Below are positions 15,064-19,062 of a stretch of DNA of 60,761 nucleotides, one piece after another. Positions within the stretch are counted from its first letter, which is position 1; the number at the start of each line of letters is the position of its first letter. This DNA is from Thermus igniterrae ATCC 700962 (GTDB taxonomy: Bacteria > Deinococcota > Deinococci > Deinococcales > Thermaceae). Under the pieces are notes generated by a model that worked only from the letters and a program-made list of their open reading frames with translations, searched no databases and had not been told where the DNA came from. The stretch spans positions 1-60,761 of the forward strand of contig NZ_AQWU01000059.1 in assembly GCF_000376265.1 (NCBI RefSeq), read 5' to 3'. Both the position numbers and the translations under genes were made by a program.

Positions 15064-16050
15064 ATGGGACGCTTCTCCCGGGAAGCGGAGGGGGGCCTCG
15101 AGGGCCTGGCCCGTGGGCTCTACTGGCTCACCTGGGGGGGCCTCCTTGCGGGGATGGGTCTCCAGGTCCTCCTTTACCCTCCCCGGGGTTGGCAGGGATA
15201 CCTCTATCCGGTGTTCCTGGGCCTTTTCCTGCTGGCCCTGCGCGCCGGGCCCCGGGAGGCCCCCCGCCGCCTGGTCCCGGCCTTGGGGGCCTACTTCCTC
15301 TTTGAGTTGGGGCGGGTGGGGGAGGCCTGGGTGGTATTGGGCTTCTGGACCCCCAGCCTTTACCTCCTGGTGGCCTTCGGCTACCGGGGCTGGAGGGCGG
15401 TCTTCCAGGGGGCGGCCTGGGCCTTCCTCTTCCTCCTTCTCCCCTTGGCCCTGGGCCGGGGCTTTTCCCCTACCTGGGCCCACTTCGCCCTGGCCCAGCC
15501 CGTCCTCCTGGCCCTCACCCTACTCCTGGCCCGCTTCCGCGAGCTCTACGGCCAGGTGCGCTTCTGGCGGGACCAGGCCCTTACCGACCCCCTCACCGGC
15601 CTCCCCAACCGCCGTGCCCTGGAGATGGCCATGGAACGGGAGGCGGCCCGGGTGGAGCGGGGCGGGGCGCCCTTCAGCCTGGTCCTGGTGGACCTGGACG
15701 ATTTCAAGCGCATCAACGACGAGCGGGGCCACCCCGAGGGGGACCGCCTCCTCAAGGAGGTGGGGCGCTACCTGGTGGCCCACGTGCGCCGGGAGGACCT
15801 GGTGGGGCGCTGGGGGGGAGAGGAGTTCGCCCTGCTCCTACCCGAGACCAACCCCCTTCAGGCGGAGCGCCTGGCGGAGCGCCTGCGGGAAGGGCTGAAG
15901 GCCTTAGGGGTCACCGCCAGCTTTGGGGTGGCGGGCTACCGCGGGGACCTTCTGGACCTCTACCAGCGGGCCGACCGGGCCCTTTACCGGGCCAAGGCCG
16001 GGGGTAAGGACCGGGTGGAGCGCCACACGGGCTCCTGGGAGGCCTCCTAG
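15064..16050 (+). CDS. Membrane diguanylate cyclase (GGDEF)
   Basis: A 328-aa protein. Residues 1-165 contain about five to six hydrophobic helices with no large extracytoplasmic domain. The GGDEF domain (about 175-325) starts TDPLTGLPNRRALE. It holds the active-site loop RWGGEEFALLLPE and the inhibitory site RRED five residues before it (RxxD I-site), so product inhibition by c-di-GMP is likely. It should make c-di-GMP from GTP in response to a membrane signal. No EAL partner is nearby. The last 4 bp overlap tyrA on the opposite strand. Confidence 0.93.
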   Translation: MGRFSREAEGGLEGLARGLYWLTWGGLLAGMGLQVLLYPPRGWQGYLYPVFLGLFLLALRAGPREAPRRLVPALGAYFLFELGRVGEAWVVLGFWTPSLYLLVAFGYRGWRAVFQGAAWAFLFLLLPLALGRGFSPTWAHFALAQPVLLALTLLLARFRELYGQVRFWRDQALTDPLTGLPNRRALEMAMEREAARVERGGAPFSLVLVDLDDFKRINDERGHPEGDRLLKEVGRYLVAHVRREDLVGRWGGEEFALLLPETNPLQAERLAERLREGLKALGVTASFGVAGYRGDLLDLYQRADRALYRAKAGGKDRVERHTGSWEAS

Positions 16051-17126
16051 GGCATGCGGTAGCCCACGCCCTGAAGGACGGCCCTGGCCCGCTCCCGCTC
16101 CTCCCGGGTGGCGAAGCCCAGGCGCAGGGCCCCCGCCGCCTCCCGGATGGTGAGGACCTCGATGTCCTTTATGTTCACCCCCGCCTCCCCCAAGGCGGTG
16201 GCGATGCGGGCGATCTCCCCGGGACGGTCGGGCACCTGGACCACCAGGTCGTGCATCTCGGGCAGGAGGCTGCGGCGCACGATGGGAAGGCTGTCCCGGG
16301 TGCGCTTGGCGGCCTCGGCGGCCTCCAGCAGGGCCTCGGGCGCCTCCAAAAGCTCCTCCAGCTCCAGGAGGACGGCCCGGAGCTCCTCTATGGCCTCCTT
16401 GAGGGCCTCCTTGTTGGCCACCACCATGTCCCGGCTCATCCTGGGAGACCCGGAGGCCACCCGGGTGAGGTCGCGGAAGCCCCCGGCGGCCAGGAAGATG
16501 AGGAGGTCCCGGTGGGGGCTCTGCGCCACCATGCGGTTCAGGGCCACCGCCAGGAGGTAGGGGAGGTGGGAGATGCGGGCCACCAGCCGGTCGTGGAGGA
16601 GGGGGGGCATCTCCAGGGGGTAGGCCCCCAGGGCCTCCACCAGGCGGCGCACCCCTTCCTTGGCCCGGAGGGGGGTCCGGTCCGTGGGGGTGAGCACCCA
16701 GACCGCGTTTTGCAACAGGCCGGCGTGGGCGTTCTCCACCCCCGCCCGCTCGCTCCCCGCCATGGGGTGCCCCCCCAGGTAGTGGGGAAGGCGGCTTTCC
16801 AAAGCCGCCACCACCTCCCCCTTGACGCTACCCACGTCCGTCCAGAGGCTTTCGGGGTGGGCCAGGGGAGCCAGGGCCTCCCCCAGGGCCGGGAGGGCCC
16901 CCACGGGGGCCGCCAGGACCCCCAGGTCCAGCTCGGCCACCCAGGGCCCCAGCTGGGTGTGCACCCGGTCGGCTACCCCCAGGAAGAGGGCCTTTTCCAG
17001 GGCCACCGGGTCTTGGTCGTAGGCGTGGACCTCCTCCGCCAGGAAGCGCTCCTTGAGGCCCAGGGCCACGCTCCCCCCCAGGAGGCCCACGCCGAAGATG
17101 CCCACCTTGCGAAAAAAGGGCTTCAT
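16047..17126 (-). CDS. tyrA: Prephenate dehydrogenase with ACT domain
   Basis: A 359-aa enzyme that converts prephenate to 4-hydroxyphenylpyruvate in tyrosine synthesis. The N-terminal Rossmann motif is VGIFGVGLLGGSVALGL. The catalytic-region blocks TDVGSVKG, GGHPMAGSERAGVENA and ISHLPYLLAVAL follow. The last 75 residues form an ACT domain (DLVVQVPDRPGEIARIA, GVNIKDIEVL), consistent with feedback by tyrosine. ATG 17126 is chosen because it overlaps the aroF stop as ATGA. A longer frame adds non-homologous residues. It shares the aroF attenuator. Confidence 0.94.
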   Translation of the reverse strand: MKPFFRKVGIFGVGLLGGSVALGLKERFLAEEVHAYDQDPVALEKALFLGVADRVHTQLGPWVAELDLGVLAAPVGALPALGEALAPLAHPESLWTDVGSVKGEVVAALESRLPHYLGGHPMAGSERAGVENAHAGLLQNAVWVLTPTDRTPLRAKEGVRRLVEALGAYPLEMPPLLHDRLVARISHLPYLLAVALNRMVAQSPHRDLLIFLAAGGFRDLTRVASGSPRMSRDMVVANKEALKEAIEELRAVLLELEELLEAPEALLEAAEAAKRTRDSLPIVRRSLLPEMHDLVVQVPDRPGEIARIATALGEAGVNIKDIEVLTIREAAGALRLGFATREERERARAVLQGVGYRMP

Positions 17127-18157
17127 CCCAGGACCGGGGCGGAGAGGGTCTTGTCCAGGGCCTGGACCAGGCGCCGGACCCTTTGCATGAGCTCGGCGAA
17201 CTCCCACTCGTGGAGTTGCTGGGCCGCGTCGGAGAGGGCCTTTTCCGGCTCGGGGTGGGTTTCCACGATGAGGCCGTCGGCCCCCGCGGCCAGGCCGGCC
17301 AGGGCCAAGGGGATCACCCAGTCCCGCTTGCCCGCGGGGTGGGAGGGGTCCACCCAGATGGGGAGGTGGGTCCAGCTCTTGAGCACCGGCACGGCGGAGA
17401 CGTCCAGGGTGAAGCGGGTGGCCTTCTCAAAGGTGCGGATGCCCCGCTCCACCAGGATGACCTGCATGTTGCCCCGGGAGAGGATGTACTCGGCGCTCAT
17501 GAGGAACTCCTCCAGGGTCATGCTCATGCCCCGCTTGAGCAGCACGGGCTTTCGTACCTCCCCCACCGCCTGGAGCAGGGGGAAGTTCTGGGCGTTGCGG
17601 GCGCCGATCTGCAGGGCGTCCGCGTACTCCGCCACCAGCTCCACCTGCTCGGGGGAGAGGACCTCGGTGACCACAGGGAGGCCCGTCTCCTTCCGGGCCT
17701 CGGCCAGGATTTTGAGGCCCTCCTCCCCCAGTCCCTGGAAGGCGTAGGGACTCGTGCGCGGCTTGAAGGCTCCCCCCCGGAGCATCCCGCCCCCGTGGGC
17801 CTTCACGTAGCGGGCGGCCTTGAGGGTCTGCTCCCGGGACTCCACCCCGCAGGGGCCCGCGGCCACCAGCACGTGGCCTCCACCGGTTTTGCCCGTGGCG
17901 AACTCCAAGACGGTGGGGAAGGGCTGGACCTCGAGGCTCGCCAGCTTCCAGGGCTTGGAGATGGGGATGACCTCCGCCACCCCGGGCAGGGCGCGGAAGT
18001 GCTCCATGAGCTCCGGGGTGGGGCCCTTGCCGATGGCCCCCACCAGGGTGGTCTCCACCCCCCGGGACACGTGGGGCCGGTACCCCACCTTCTCAATCTC
18101 CCGGATGACCTCCTCCAGCTCCGCCTCCTGGTACCCTCGCTTCATCACGATCAGCAT
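17123..18157 (-). CDS. aroF: 3-deoxy-7-phosphoheptulonate synthase, type I-beta
   Basis: A 344-aa DAHP synthase that condenses PEP and erythrose-4-phosphate, the first step of aromatic amino acid synthesis. Residues 1-70 are the ferredoxin-like regulatory domain (MLIVMKRGYQEAELEEVI). The TIM barrel has VAAGPCGVESREQ (metal Cys), GGAFKPRTSPYAFQG, LQIGARNAQNFPLL, KPVLLKRGMSMT, LVERGIRTFE, VDPSHPAGKRD and ETHPEPEKALSD. This N-terminal domain mediates Tyr/Phe feedback in related thermophile enzymes. The gene is preceded by a leader peptide and terminator and overlaps tyrA by 4 bp. Confidence 0.96.
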   Translation of the reverse strand: MLIVMKRGYQEAELEEVIREIEKVGYRPHVSRGVETTLVGAIGKGPTPELMEHFRALPGVAEVIPISKPWKLASLEVQPFPTVLEFATGKTGGGHVLVAAGPCGVESREQTLKAARYVKAHGGGMLRGGAFKPRTSPYAFQGLGEEGLKILAEARKETGLPVVTEVLSPEQVELVAEYADALQIGARNAQNFPLLQAVGEVRKPVLLKRGMSMTLEEFLMSAEYILSRGNMQVILVERGIRTFEKATRFTLDVSAVPVLKSWTHLPIWVDPSHPAGKRDWVIPLALAGLAAGADGLIVETHPEPEKALSDAAQQLHEWEFAELMQRVRRLVQALDKTLSAPVLG

Positions 18158-18168
18158 GGTCCCCTCCC

Positions 18169-18199
18169 AAAAAACTTGGGCGCCCCTTTTGGGGCGCCC
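18169..18199 (-). terminator. aroF attenuator terminator
   Basis: On the minus strand there is a perfect 9-bp stem GGGCGCCCC with loop AAAA and GGGGCGCCC, then AAGTTTTTT, 11 nt before the aroF ATG. It is an intrinsic terminator in the leader of the gene it precedes. Confidence 0.85.
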
Positions 18200-18215
18200 T
18201 TTTGCGGCAAAGCCT

Positions 18216-18281
18216 CTATGCGGGCCGCAGGGCGCCCCCGGCGGGATAATAAAAGCCGAAGTGGCGCCCTAGCCTCCGCAT
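18216..18281 (-). CDS. aroF-tyrA leader peptide (Phe/Tyr)
   Basis: A 21-codon frame reads MRRLGRHFGFYYPAGG then ALRPA and stops. Codons 8-12 give Phe-Gly-Phe-Tyr-Tyr, using TTC, TTT, TAT and TAT. TTT and TAT are uncommon in this GC-rich genome. The ATG lies 10 nt after the promoter -10, so the message is nearly leaderless. Four copies of GGGCGCC(C) lie at 18263-18270 (in the leader), 18230-18239 (leader end), 18191-18199 and 18178-18186 (terminator arms). They give the 1:2/3:4 versus 2:3 choice of a classical ribosome-stalling attenuator. This is inferred from sequence and not from any known entry. Confidence 0.8.
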   Translation of the reverse strand: MRRLGRHFGFYYPAGGALRPA

Positions 18282-18291
18282 ATTGCCCCCA

Positions 18292-18321
18292 AGTTTAGGC
18301 GGGCTCTGGTCCCCTTGTCAA
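18292..18321 (-). promoter_or_regulatory. aroF-tyrA promoter
   Basis: -35 TTGACA (18316-18321), an 18-bp spacer and -10 TAAACT (18292-18297) on the minus strand. The -35 is a perfect consensus, lies within the end of the VOC dioxygenase gene, and points at the leader peptide. Confidence 0.8.
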
Positions 18322-19062
18322 GCGCACCCCGTGGCCCCAGGGGTCCAGGAACTCCTCCTCCATCCCCCAGGGGGCCAGGAGGGTGTAGCCCAGAAGCCCC
18401 GTGGCCCCTTCGGGGGCCCTCTGTCCCCTGGCCCAGGTGTTGGCCCCCACGTGGTGGTGGTACCCGTCCCAGGCGAAGAAGAGGGCCCCGGGGTAGGTGC
18501 GCAGGGTGGTCGCCATGCCTAGCCTCCCCCCGAAGAAGGCCTCTGCCTCCCGGAGGTCCCCCACGTGCAGGTGGAGGTGGCCAAGGCGGGTTTCCGGGGG
18601 AAGAGGGGTGGGGTGGGGGGTCTCCCCAAGCAACCCCTCCAGGTTGAGGGGGGCGGTGAACATCAGGGGTTCCCTGGGCCAGGCCTCTGGGGGGCGGTCC
18701 CAGTAAAGCTCCAGGCCGTTTCCCTCGGGGTCGCGGAAGTAGAGGGCCTCGGAGACCCCGTGGTCCGCTGCCCCCTCAAAGAAGGCCCCCGCTTCCAGAA
18801 GCCTTCGGGAAACCCCAGCCAGGTCCTTGCGGTGGGGTAGGAGGAGGGCGAAGTGGTAAAGCCCTACCGAGGGGTAAGGCCTTAGGGGGGCCTCAGGTTT
18901 GTGGATCAGGTCCAGGTAAAACCCCCTCCCTTCGGGAAAAAAGCGGTAAAGGGGAGGGTCGGCCTCCAGGCTAAGGCCCAGGAGGTCCCGGTAGAAGGCG
19001 AGGGCGGCCCCCAGGTTCCTCACCCGCAGGGAGAGGCCCAGGAGCCGCCTGGGGAAGGTCAT
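18295..19062 (-). CDS. Two-domain VOC (glyoxalase/catechol dioxygenase-like) protein
   Basis: A 255-aa protein with two VOC domains, residues 5-125 and 155-250. The first has SLRVRNLGAALAFYRDLLGL, LYHFALLLP and DPEGNGLELYWD; the second has LGHLHLHVGDLREAEAFF, GYHHHVGANTW and EEEFLDPWG. The His...His...Glu pattern in the second domain resembles the Fe(II) site of CatE-type catechol 2,3-dioxygenases. No aromatic-degradation genes are adjacent, so the substrate is open. The ATG abuts the yceI stop, suggesting cotranscription. The aroF promoter lies in its last 30 bp. Confidence 0.85.
   Translation of the reverse strand: MTFPRRLLGLSLRVRNLGAALAFYRDLLGLSLEADPPLYRFFPEGRGFYLDLIHKPEAPLRPYPSVGLYHFALLLPHRKDLAGVSRRLLEAGAFFEGAADHGVSEALYFRDPEGNGLELYWDRPPEAWPREPLMFTAPLNLEGLLGETPHPTPLPPETRLGHLHLHVGDLREAEAFFGGRLGMATTLRTYPGALFFAWDGYHHHVGANTWARGQRAPEGATGLLGYTLLAPWGMEEEFLDPWGHGVRLTRGPEPA

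Follow-up and report, generated by a model that had tools for sequence, protein, structure and literature searches.

The DNA directly upstream of the aroF-tyrA operon of Thermus igniterrae ATCC 700962 very probably encodes a ribosome-mediated transcription attenuator of the trp/phe type, by which transcription of aroF-tyrA would be tied to charged tRNA-Phe and tRNA-Tyr. It consists of a promoter followed by a short open reading frame (ORF) with a cluster of end-product codons and by an intrinsic terminator before the first gene. The antiterminator helix (2:3) and the terminator helix (3:4) are mutually exclusive, a protector helix (1:2) is present, and the reading frame, the control codons and the pairings are conserved; in the fold model, a ribosome stalled on the control codons frees 2:3, and one at the stop codon prevents it. 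The mechanism is already known, and the aroF-tyrA leader is a well-supported further example rather than a new type of switch. For aromatic amino-acid synthesis in Thermus and Meiothermus, it accounts clearly for the probable control and gives each part a testable position.

Layout of the aroF-tyrA leader

The window analysed, which is the whole stretch of 60,761 nt, carries the element at positions 18,169–18,321, with all features of the locus on the minus strand. The initial annotation had read here a promoter, a 21-codon leader, four GGGCGCC words and a T6 terminator before aroF, and every part is present base for base where it had been placed. The promoter, TTGACA-18-TAAACT (18,292–18,321), has its -35 box at 18,321–18,316 and its -10 box at 18,297–18,292, with an 18-nt spacer, and is the single promoter-like site called in 1 kb, upstream of the terminator (promoter scan; shuffle mean 0.1). 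A transcript start downstream of the terminator, which had been named as one case against the attenuator, is not indicated, since the scan of 1 kb called no promoter between terminator and aroF. The gene upstream of the leader (18,295–19,062) matches glyoxalase/extradiol-dioxygenase families weakly; it runs in the same direction as aroF, and its TAA stop codon is part of the TAAACT box.

The leader ORF, MRRLGRHFGFYYPAGGALRPA (18,216–18,281), has 21 codons between the ATG at 18,281–18,279 and the TAG at 18,218–18,216, and codons 8–12 (TTC GGC TTT TAT TAT; 18,246–18,260) specify Phe8-Gly9-Phe10-Tyr11-Tyr12. At least four Phe/Tyr in five consecutive codons are expected by chance in a 20-codon ORF with a probability of about 0.0007, and among short ORFs of the window that start with ATG, the leader alone has a Phe/Tyr cluster of this kind. 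The remaining cluster matches, with Phe, Tyr and Trp counted, form one nested GTG/TTG-started set at 18,401–18,440, antisense to a gene.

The four words are (A)GGGCGCC (word 1, 18,270–18,263), GGGGGCGCCC (word 2, 18,239–18,230), GGGCGCCCC (word 3, 18,199–18,191) and GGGGCGCCC (word 4, 18,178–18,186). GGCGCC occurs 41 times in the window, four times within the 153 bp of the element and at most twice in any other 153-bp stretch, and GGGCGCC lies below expectation across the window (31 observed vs 61 expected). The words had been taken as the pairing segments, and they do pair, though the helices extend past them. Segment 1, comprising the start-codon region AUGCGG... and the word AGGGCGCC (18,263–18,281), pairs with segment 2, GGGGGCGCCCUGCGGCCCGCAU (18,218–18,239), through word 1 with word 2 and through the start-codon region (mostly AUGCGGACC across species) with GGUCCGCAU before the stop codon; this extension beyond the words joins AUGCGG(ACC) at the start codon to (GGU)CCGCAU at the leader end. 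Segment 2 pairs alternatively with segment 3, GCCGCAAAAGGGCGCCCC (18,191–18,208), as the antiterminator, in which word 2 with word 3 is followed by a short bulge and then by UGCGG with CCGCA. The word of segment 3 also pairs with segment 4, which is word 4 and forms the 3' arm of the terminator (18,169–18,199), with nine G-C pairs, an AAAA loop and T6 at 18,174–18,169. It was the single terminator called in 1 kb, a kind of call that is frequent enough in shuffles (mean 0.9). The leader fold had a z-score of -3.2, with none of 200 shuffles equally stable, and when the window's element was dinucleotide-shuffled 300 times, no shuffle had 1:2, 2:3 and 3:4 together.

Directly 3' of the T tract lies a probable Shine-Dalgarno sequence of aroF, GGGAGGGG (18,161–18,168), identified by inspection. 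The aroF gene (17,123–18,157, ATG at 18,157) encodes a 3-deoxy-7-phosphoheptulonate (DAHP) synthase of the PRK08673/DAHP_synth_Bsub type, and the ORF of tyrA, prephenate dehydrogenase (16,047–17,207), overlaps the end of aroF, with the true start within the ORF.

Ribosome position and the amino acids probably sensed

Forty-one leaders were folded at 37 and 65 °C with a ribosome footprint from P-13 to P+15 kept single-stranded; these sequences are related and in effect form two clades, so that counts over them are not independent. In Thermus at 37 °C, with segment 4 not yet made, the free RNA formed 1:2 (mean 16.7 bp), and a ribosome at the first control codon gave 2:3 (14.2 bp). With the ribosome at the stop codon, 1:2 was down to 0.9 bp and 2:3 to 0.3 bp, and 3:4 (9.9 bp) formed once the transcript was complete. 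For the full transcript of the window's sequence with the ribosome at the first control codon, 2:3 reached 12.4 bp vs 1.4 bp of 3:4. Masked folding thus reproduces the proposal that a stall covers segment 1 and yields 2:3, with 3:4 forming otherwise. In a codon-by-codon scan, 2:3 was present through codon 11 and gone from codon 13, the outcome at codon 12 varying with footprint and temperature. In 37 of the 41 sequences, this switch edge fell at most one codon from the last aromatic codon; three Meiothermus leaders had no clear edge and one Thermus leader was two codons off.

The order of events would be as follows. Translation would begin at the AUG, close to the 5' end of the RNA as it is made, and where Phe- or Tyr-tRNA is scarce the ribosome would wait at codons 8–11 (or 12) with segment 1 covered; 2:3 (about 14 bp) would then form, the terminator would not, and RNA polymerase would enter aroF. 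With ample aminoacyl-tRNA, the ribosome would continue across segment 2 as far as the stop codon, whereupon 3:4 would end transcription before aroF. If the leader were not translated, 1:2 would form, the start codon would be buried and 3:4 would be free, so that transcription would also stop. The model also permits 2:3 for any ribosome position 5' of the control codons, and amino-acid specificity would therefore be set by where the ribosome waits. At equilibrium, 3:4 is the favoured helix of the complete transcript in many relatives and, by the averages, invariably in Meiothermus; antitermination there would consequently have to be kinetic.

The same 1:2, 2:3 and 3:4 logic, with control codons for the operon's product, governs the pheA, pheST and trp leaders of Escherichia coli, which PMC11802643 cites as well. 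Those leaders carry a Shine-Dalgarno sequence, whereas in Thermus the ATG follows the -10 box by 10 nt and lies inside the 1:2 stem. The leader mRNA is probably leaderless, given that the ATG stands 10–11 nt after the -10 box in every Thermus-type sequence, and a leaderless attenuator ORF is known from Sinorhizobium meliloti trpL (PMC7298713). With its start codon enclosed by the 1:2 stem, the leader may be closed to a late ribosome.

Which of the aromatic codons act as sensors bears on the reading that competes best with joint Phe and Tyr control, namely an attenuator that senses Phe only and in which the Tyr codons are passive, as for AroR of Corynebacterium glutamicum; we regard this as possible and rather less probable than joint sensing. 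AroR, whose motif is Phe-Tyr-Phe, has a response to Phe but none to Tyr (PMC11802643), and in the Thermus leader Phe8 and Phe10 precede the Tyr codons, with Tyr12 at the switch edge and absent in 5 of the 27 Thermus species. Against it, codon 11 encodes Tyr in all 27 distinct Thermus-type sequences and a ribosome stalled at Tyr11 gives the full 2:3 helix (14 bp) in the fold model, the operon includes tyrA, and Meiothermus leaders contain at least two Tyr codons. Codon 10 is TTT in 27/27 of these sequences, and codon 8 is Phe in 26 and Tyr in one. TTT and TAT, the rarer synonyms among the window's genes (TTT 22% of Phe codons, TAT 5% of Tyr codons), are retained at the control codons despite the scarcity of TAT. 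For the attenuator sensing both amino acids, Phe8, Phe10 and Tyr11 appear better supported as sensors than Tyr12, owing to the position of the latter at the switch edge and its loss in some species.

Conservation and rewriting of the element in Thermaceae

The aroF upstream regions sampled comprised 25 named loci and the family genomes (50 searched), and the upstream DNA was read in all 27 Thermus-type and 14 Meiothermus/Calidithermus-type genomes. The element lies directly 5' of aroF in 27/27 Thermus genomes and in one sister genus, and the distinct Thermus-type leaders mostly read MRTLGRYFGFYYPAGGALRSA. The promoter geometry is common to all 27 Thermus-type sequences (TTGACA/G, 17–18 nt, a TA-rich -10 box and the ATG 10–11 nt later). 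A covariance model built from Thermus-type sequences found a single strong match in each Thermus genome, in every case immediately next to aroF; in the own genome (2.2 Mb) this match had an E-value of 4e-30, the next best being 0.07, and the Thermus-built model also reported a Meiothermus copy directly 5' of its aroF (E 0.004). Two weak DNA matches of the element elsewhere in the own genome (C33, C47) proved short and of low complexity on inspection. The leader is not common to all DAHP synthases, as the paralogue of the AroQ-AroG type lacks one and starts right after its own -10 box. In five Thermaceae genomes (G001, G002, G015, G018 and G020), that type was the only DAHP synthase found, the attenuated AroF being absent at the threshold used. 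The locus of one Thermaceae metagenome-assembled genome (MAG; L019/L096) has about 100 bp extra, including a TTGACA box, between terminator and aroF, so that aroF may also be transcribed there from a second promoter, free of attenuation.

In Meiothermus and Calidithermus, the leaders (e.g. MQTSRGFASQSARFFGYFYWPGVPVRLA, ...FFGYFYWPxVPVRSA) add a Trp codon in most cases, and words 1–4 read CGGGG, CCCCG, CGGGG and CCCCG, all different from those of Thermus. The end of word 2 lies 11 nt from the stop codon in both groups. Judged from their sequences, the two groups have the same architecture and pairings with the letters of all four words changed; layout, aromatic codons and the spacing between word 2 and the stop codon are shared, and the attenuator logic is kept while the words differ. 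A lack of conservation of the leader frame or of the repeats among relatives had been set beforehand as refuting the attenuator; leader frame, aromatic codons, four segments and terminator are in fact conserved in 27/27 Thermus and, with other letters, in Meiothermus/Calidithermus. The pair of clades provides a clean natural example of a rewritten attenuator. The single self-complementary word, whose use for all four segments had been called unusually economical, is dispensable, as Meiothermus achieves the same with CGGGG/CCCCG.

Pairing was well above slid controls in both alignments. In Thermus, 95% of cells were compatible with 1:2 plus 3:4 and 92% with 2:3 (slid controls 34–56% and 47–62%), and the corresponding values for Meiothermus were 89% and 96% (slid controls 36–56% and 36–70%). 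Within the Thermus alignment, double-sided covariation did not exceed chance, and one-sided G-U changes were present; the lack of double changes follows from the invariance of the words and from the two partners that each segment 2 base must serve. The Meiothermus alignment contained a few double changes and modest covariation, whose score was reached by 22/500 and 41/500 shuffles. The covarying GGGCGCC pairs anticipated in the initial annotation are accordingly missing in Thermus, while the pairings themselves are kept with different words in Meiothermus/Calidithermus. As far as these alignments indicate, the support from covariation lies in the comparison of the two clades and in the modest covariation inside Meiothermus.

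The conservation pattern also bears on two further readings, both very improbable. An exclusive terminator/antiterminator pair would equally suit a leader that binds tRNA or a metabolite (T-box, riboswitch) or a protein-bound attenuator, with no part for ribosome stalling; yet the conserved letters belong to the leader frame and to the sequences that pair with it, both clades place the switch edge at aromatic codons, and no Rfam family, including T-box, riboswitch and described leader families, matched the leader at the gathering score, on which ground a T-box or riboswitch identity was rejected. That the hairpin serves only as the terminator of the preceding gene, with the short ORF arising by chance, might be suggested by the co-directional upstream gene with its stop overlapping the -10 box and by the frequency of GC-rich hairpins in Thermus, and was rejected because species vary in the sequence farther upstream and yet share the leader peptide, the control codons and the alternative helices, besides the lack of a called promoter between terminator and aroF.

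Related leaders in other organisms and operons

The attenuator before aroF-tyrA has counterparts in earlier work. The initial annotation had named no description of it in Thermus, and Table 7 of a 2005 study, with Merino's website as the source, does enter T. thermophilus aroAIbeta > tyrA among putative attenuators (PMC1173090). This prediction concerns the same operon and genus, and it is a table entry only: the word 'leader' is absent from the text, and no leader peptide, codons, conservation or mechanism is given for aroAIbeta > tyrA. In C. glutamicum, the aroR leader before aroF, with Phe-Tyr-Phe, acts by ribosome-mediated attenuation (Neshat et al., 2014, as cited in PMC11802643). Compared by description, not by sequence, both systems place a leader peptide with Phe/Tyr before a DAHP synthase gene; the C. 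glutamicum leader belongs to another phylum and has a Phe-only response, in contrast to FGFYY in Thermus (FGYFYW in Meiothermus) ahead of aroF-tyrA. The uORFC-13-1 motif proposed computationally for Acholeplasma aroF (PMC8632094) likewise combines a Phe-coding uORF with an adjacent terminator, with a different phylum and consensus.

A single attenuator for the whole order was ruled out, as other families carry a different leader. A second conserved mini-ORF precedes aroF in 19 upstream regions from genomes that are probably Marinithermaceae- and Trueperaceae-like (loci L077–L091, L014, L015, L018, L020, L021 and L027; e.g. L084, L085 and L078). It consists of a G-rich run (often GGAGGTGRTGCC, often Shine-Dalgarno-like) followed by (A/G)TG-GAN-GAY-GGC-TAT, and encodes (M/V)(E/D)DGY..., with (E/D)(D/E) at positions 2–3, starting with ATG in 8 and GTG in 11 cases and mostly containing a second Tyr, usually TAT. 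An in-frame upstream ATG, usually near the -10 box, occurs in 18/19. Of 111 genomes, 16 contained exactly one match to the pattern, at most about 300 bp before aroF, and a reversed control pattern gave no match. RNAalifold found no common RNA structure in this second leader, and the motif was not found in three aroF upstream regions from these families. Tentatively, and with considerable doubt, aroF in the order could be under two unrelated aromatic leader controls: in Thermaceae, the leaderless attenuator with its start codon in the protector stem, where a late ribosome would be locked out and initiation would act as a timer; in the Marinithermaceae- and Trueperaceae-like genomes, a Shine-Dalgarno–ATG/GTG–(E/D)DGY... 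mini-ORF without a conserved hairpin, which would sense Tyr by an undescribed route.

Other biosynthetic operons of the own genome have leaders as well, which suggests leader attenuation in several operons of one thermophile (aro, trp and lys), combining a leaderless start with GC-rich stems at high temperature. Upstream of trpE (G000:C48, L097), the peptide MVRPFARWWSG is followed by a CCCCCGGGG...CCCCGGGGG terminator and is probably the leader of a Trp attenuator. The use of a self-complementary word is a Thermus feature only, and CCCCGGGG is reused similarly before trpE. Upstream of the homocitrate synthase gene (G000:C24, L100) lies a Lys-Lys leader, MLALEKKLGRRGVG, with a terminator, probably a Lys attenuator. 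Tsubouchi and colleagues reportedly demonstrated a lysine leader attenuator in T. thermophilus experimentally in 2005, with which this assignment is consistent; that system shares genus and leader-peptide attenuation with the aroF element and differs in amino acid and operon. In the fold model of the homocitrate synthase leader, the leader end forms a 13-bp helix with segment 3.
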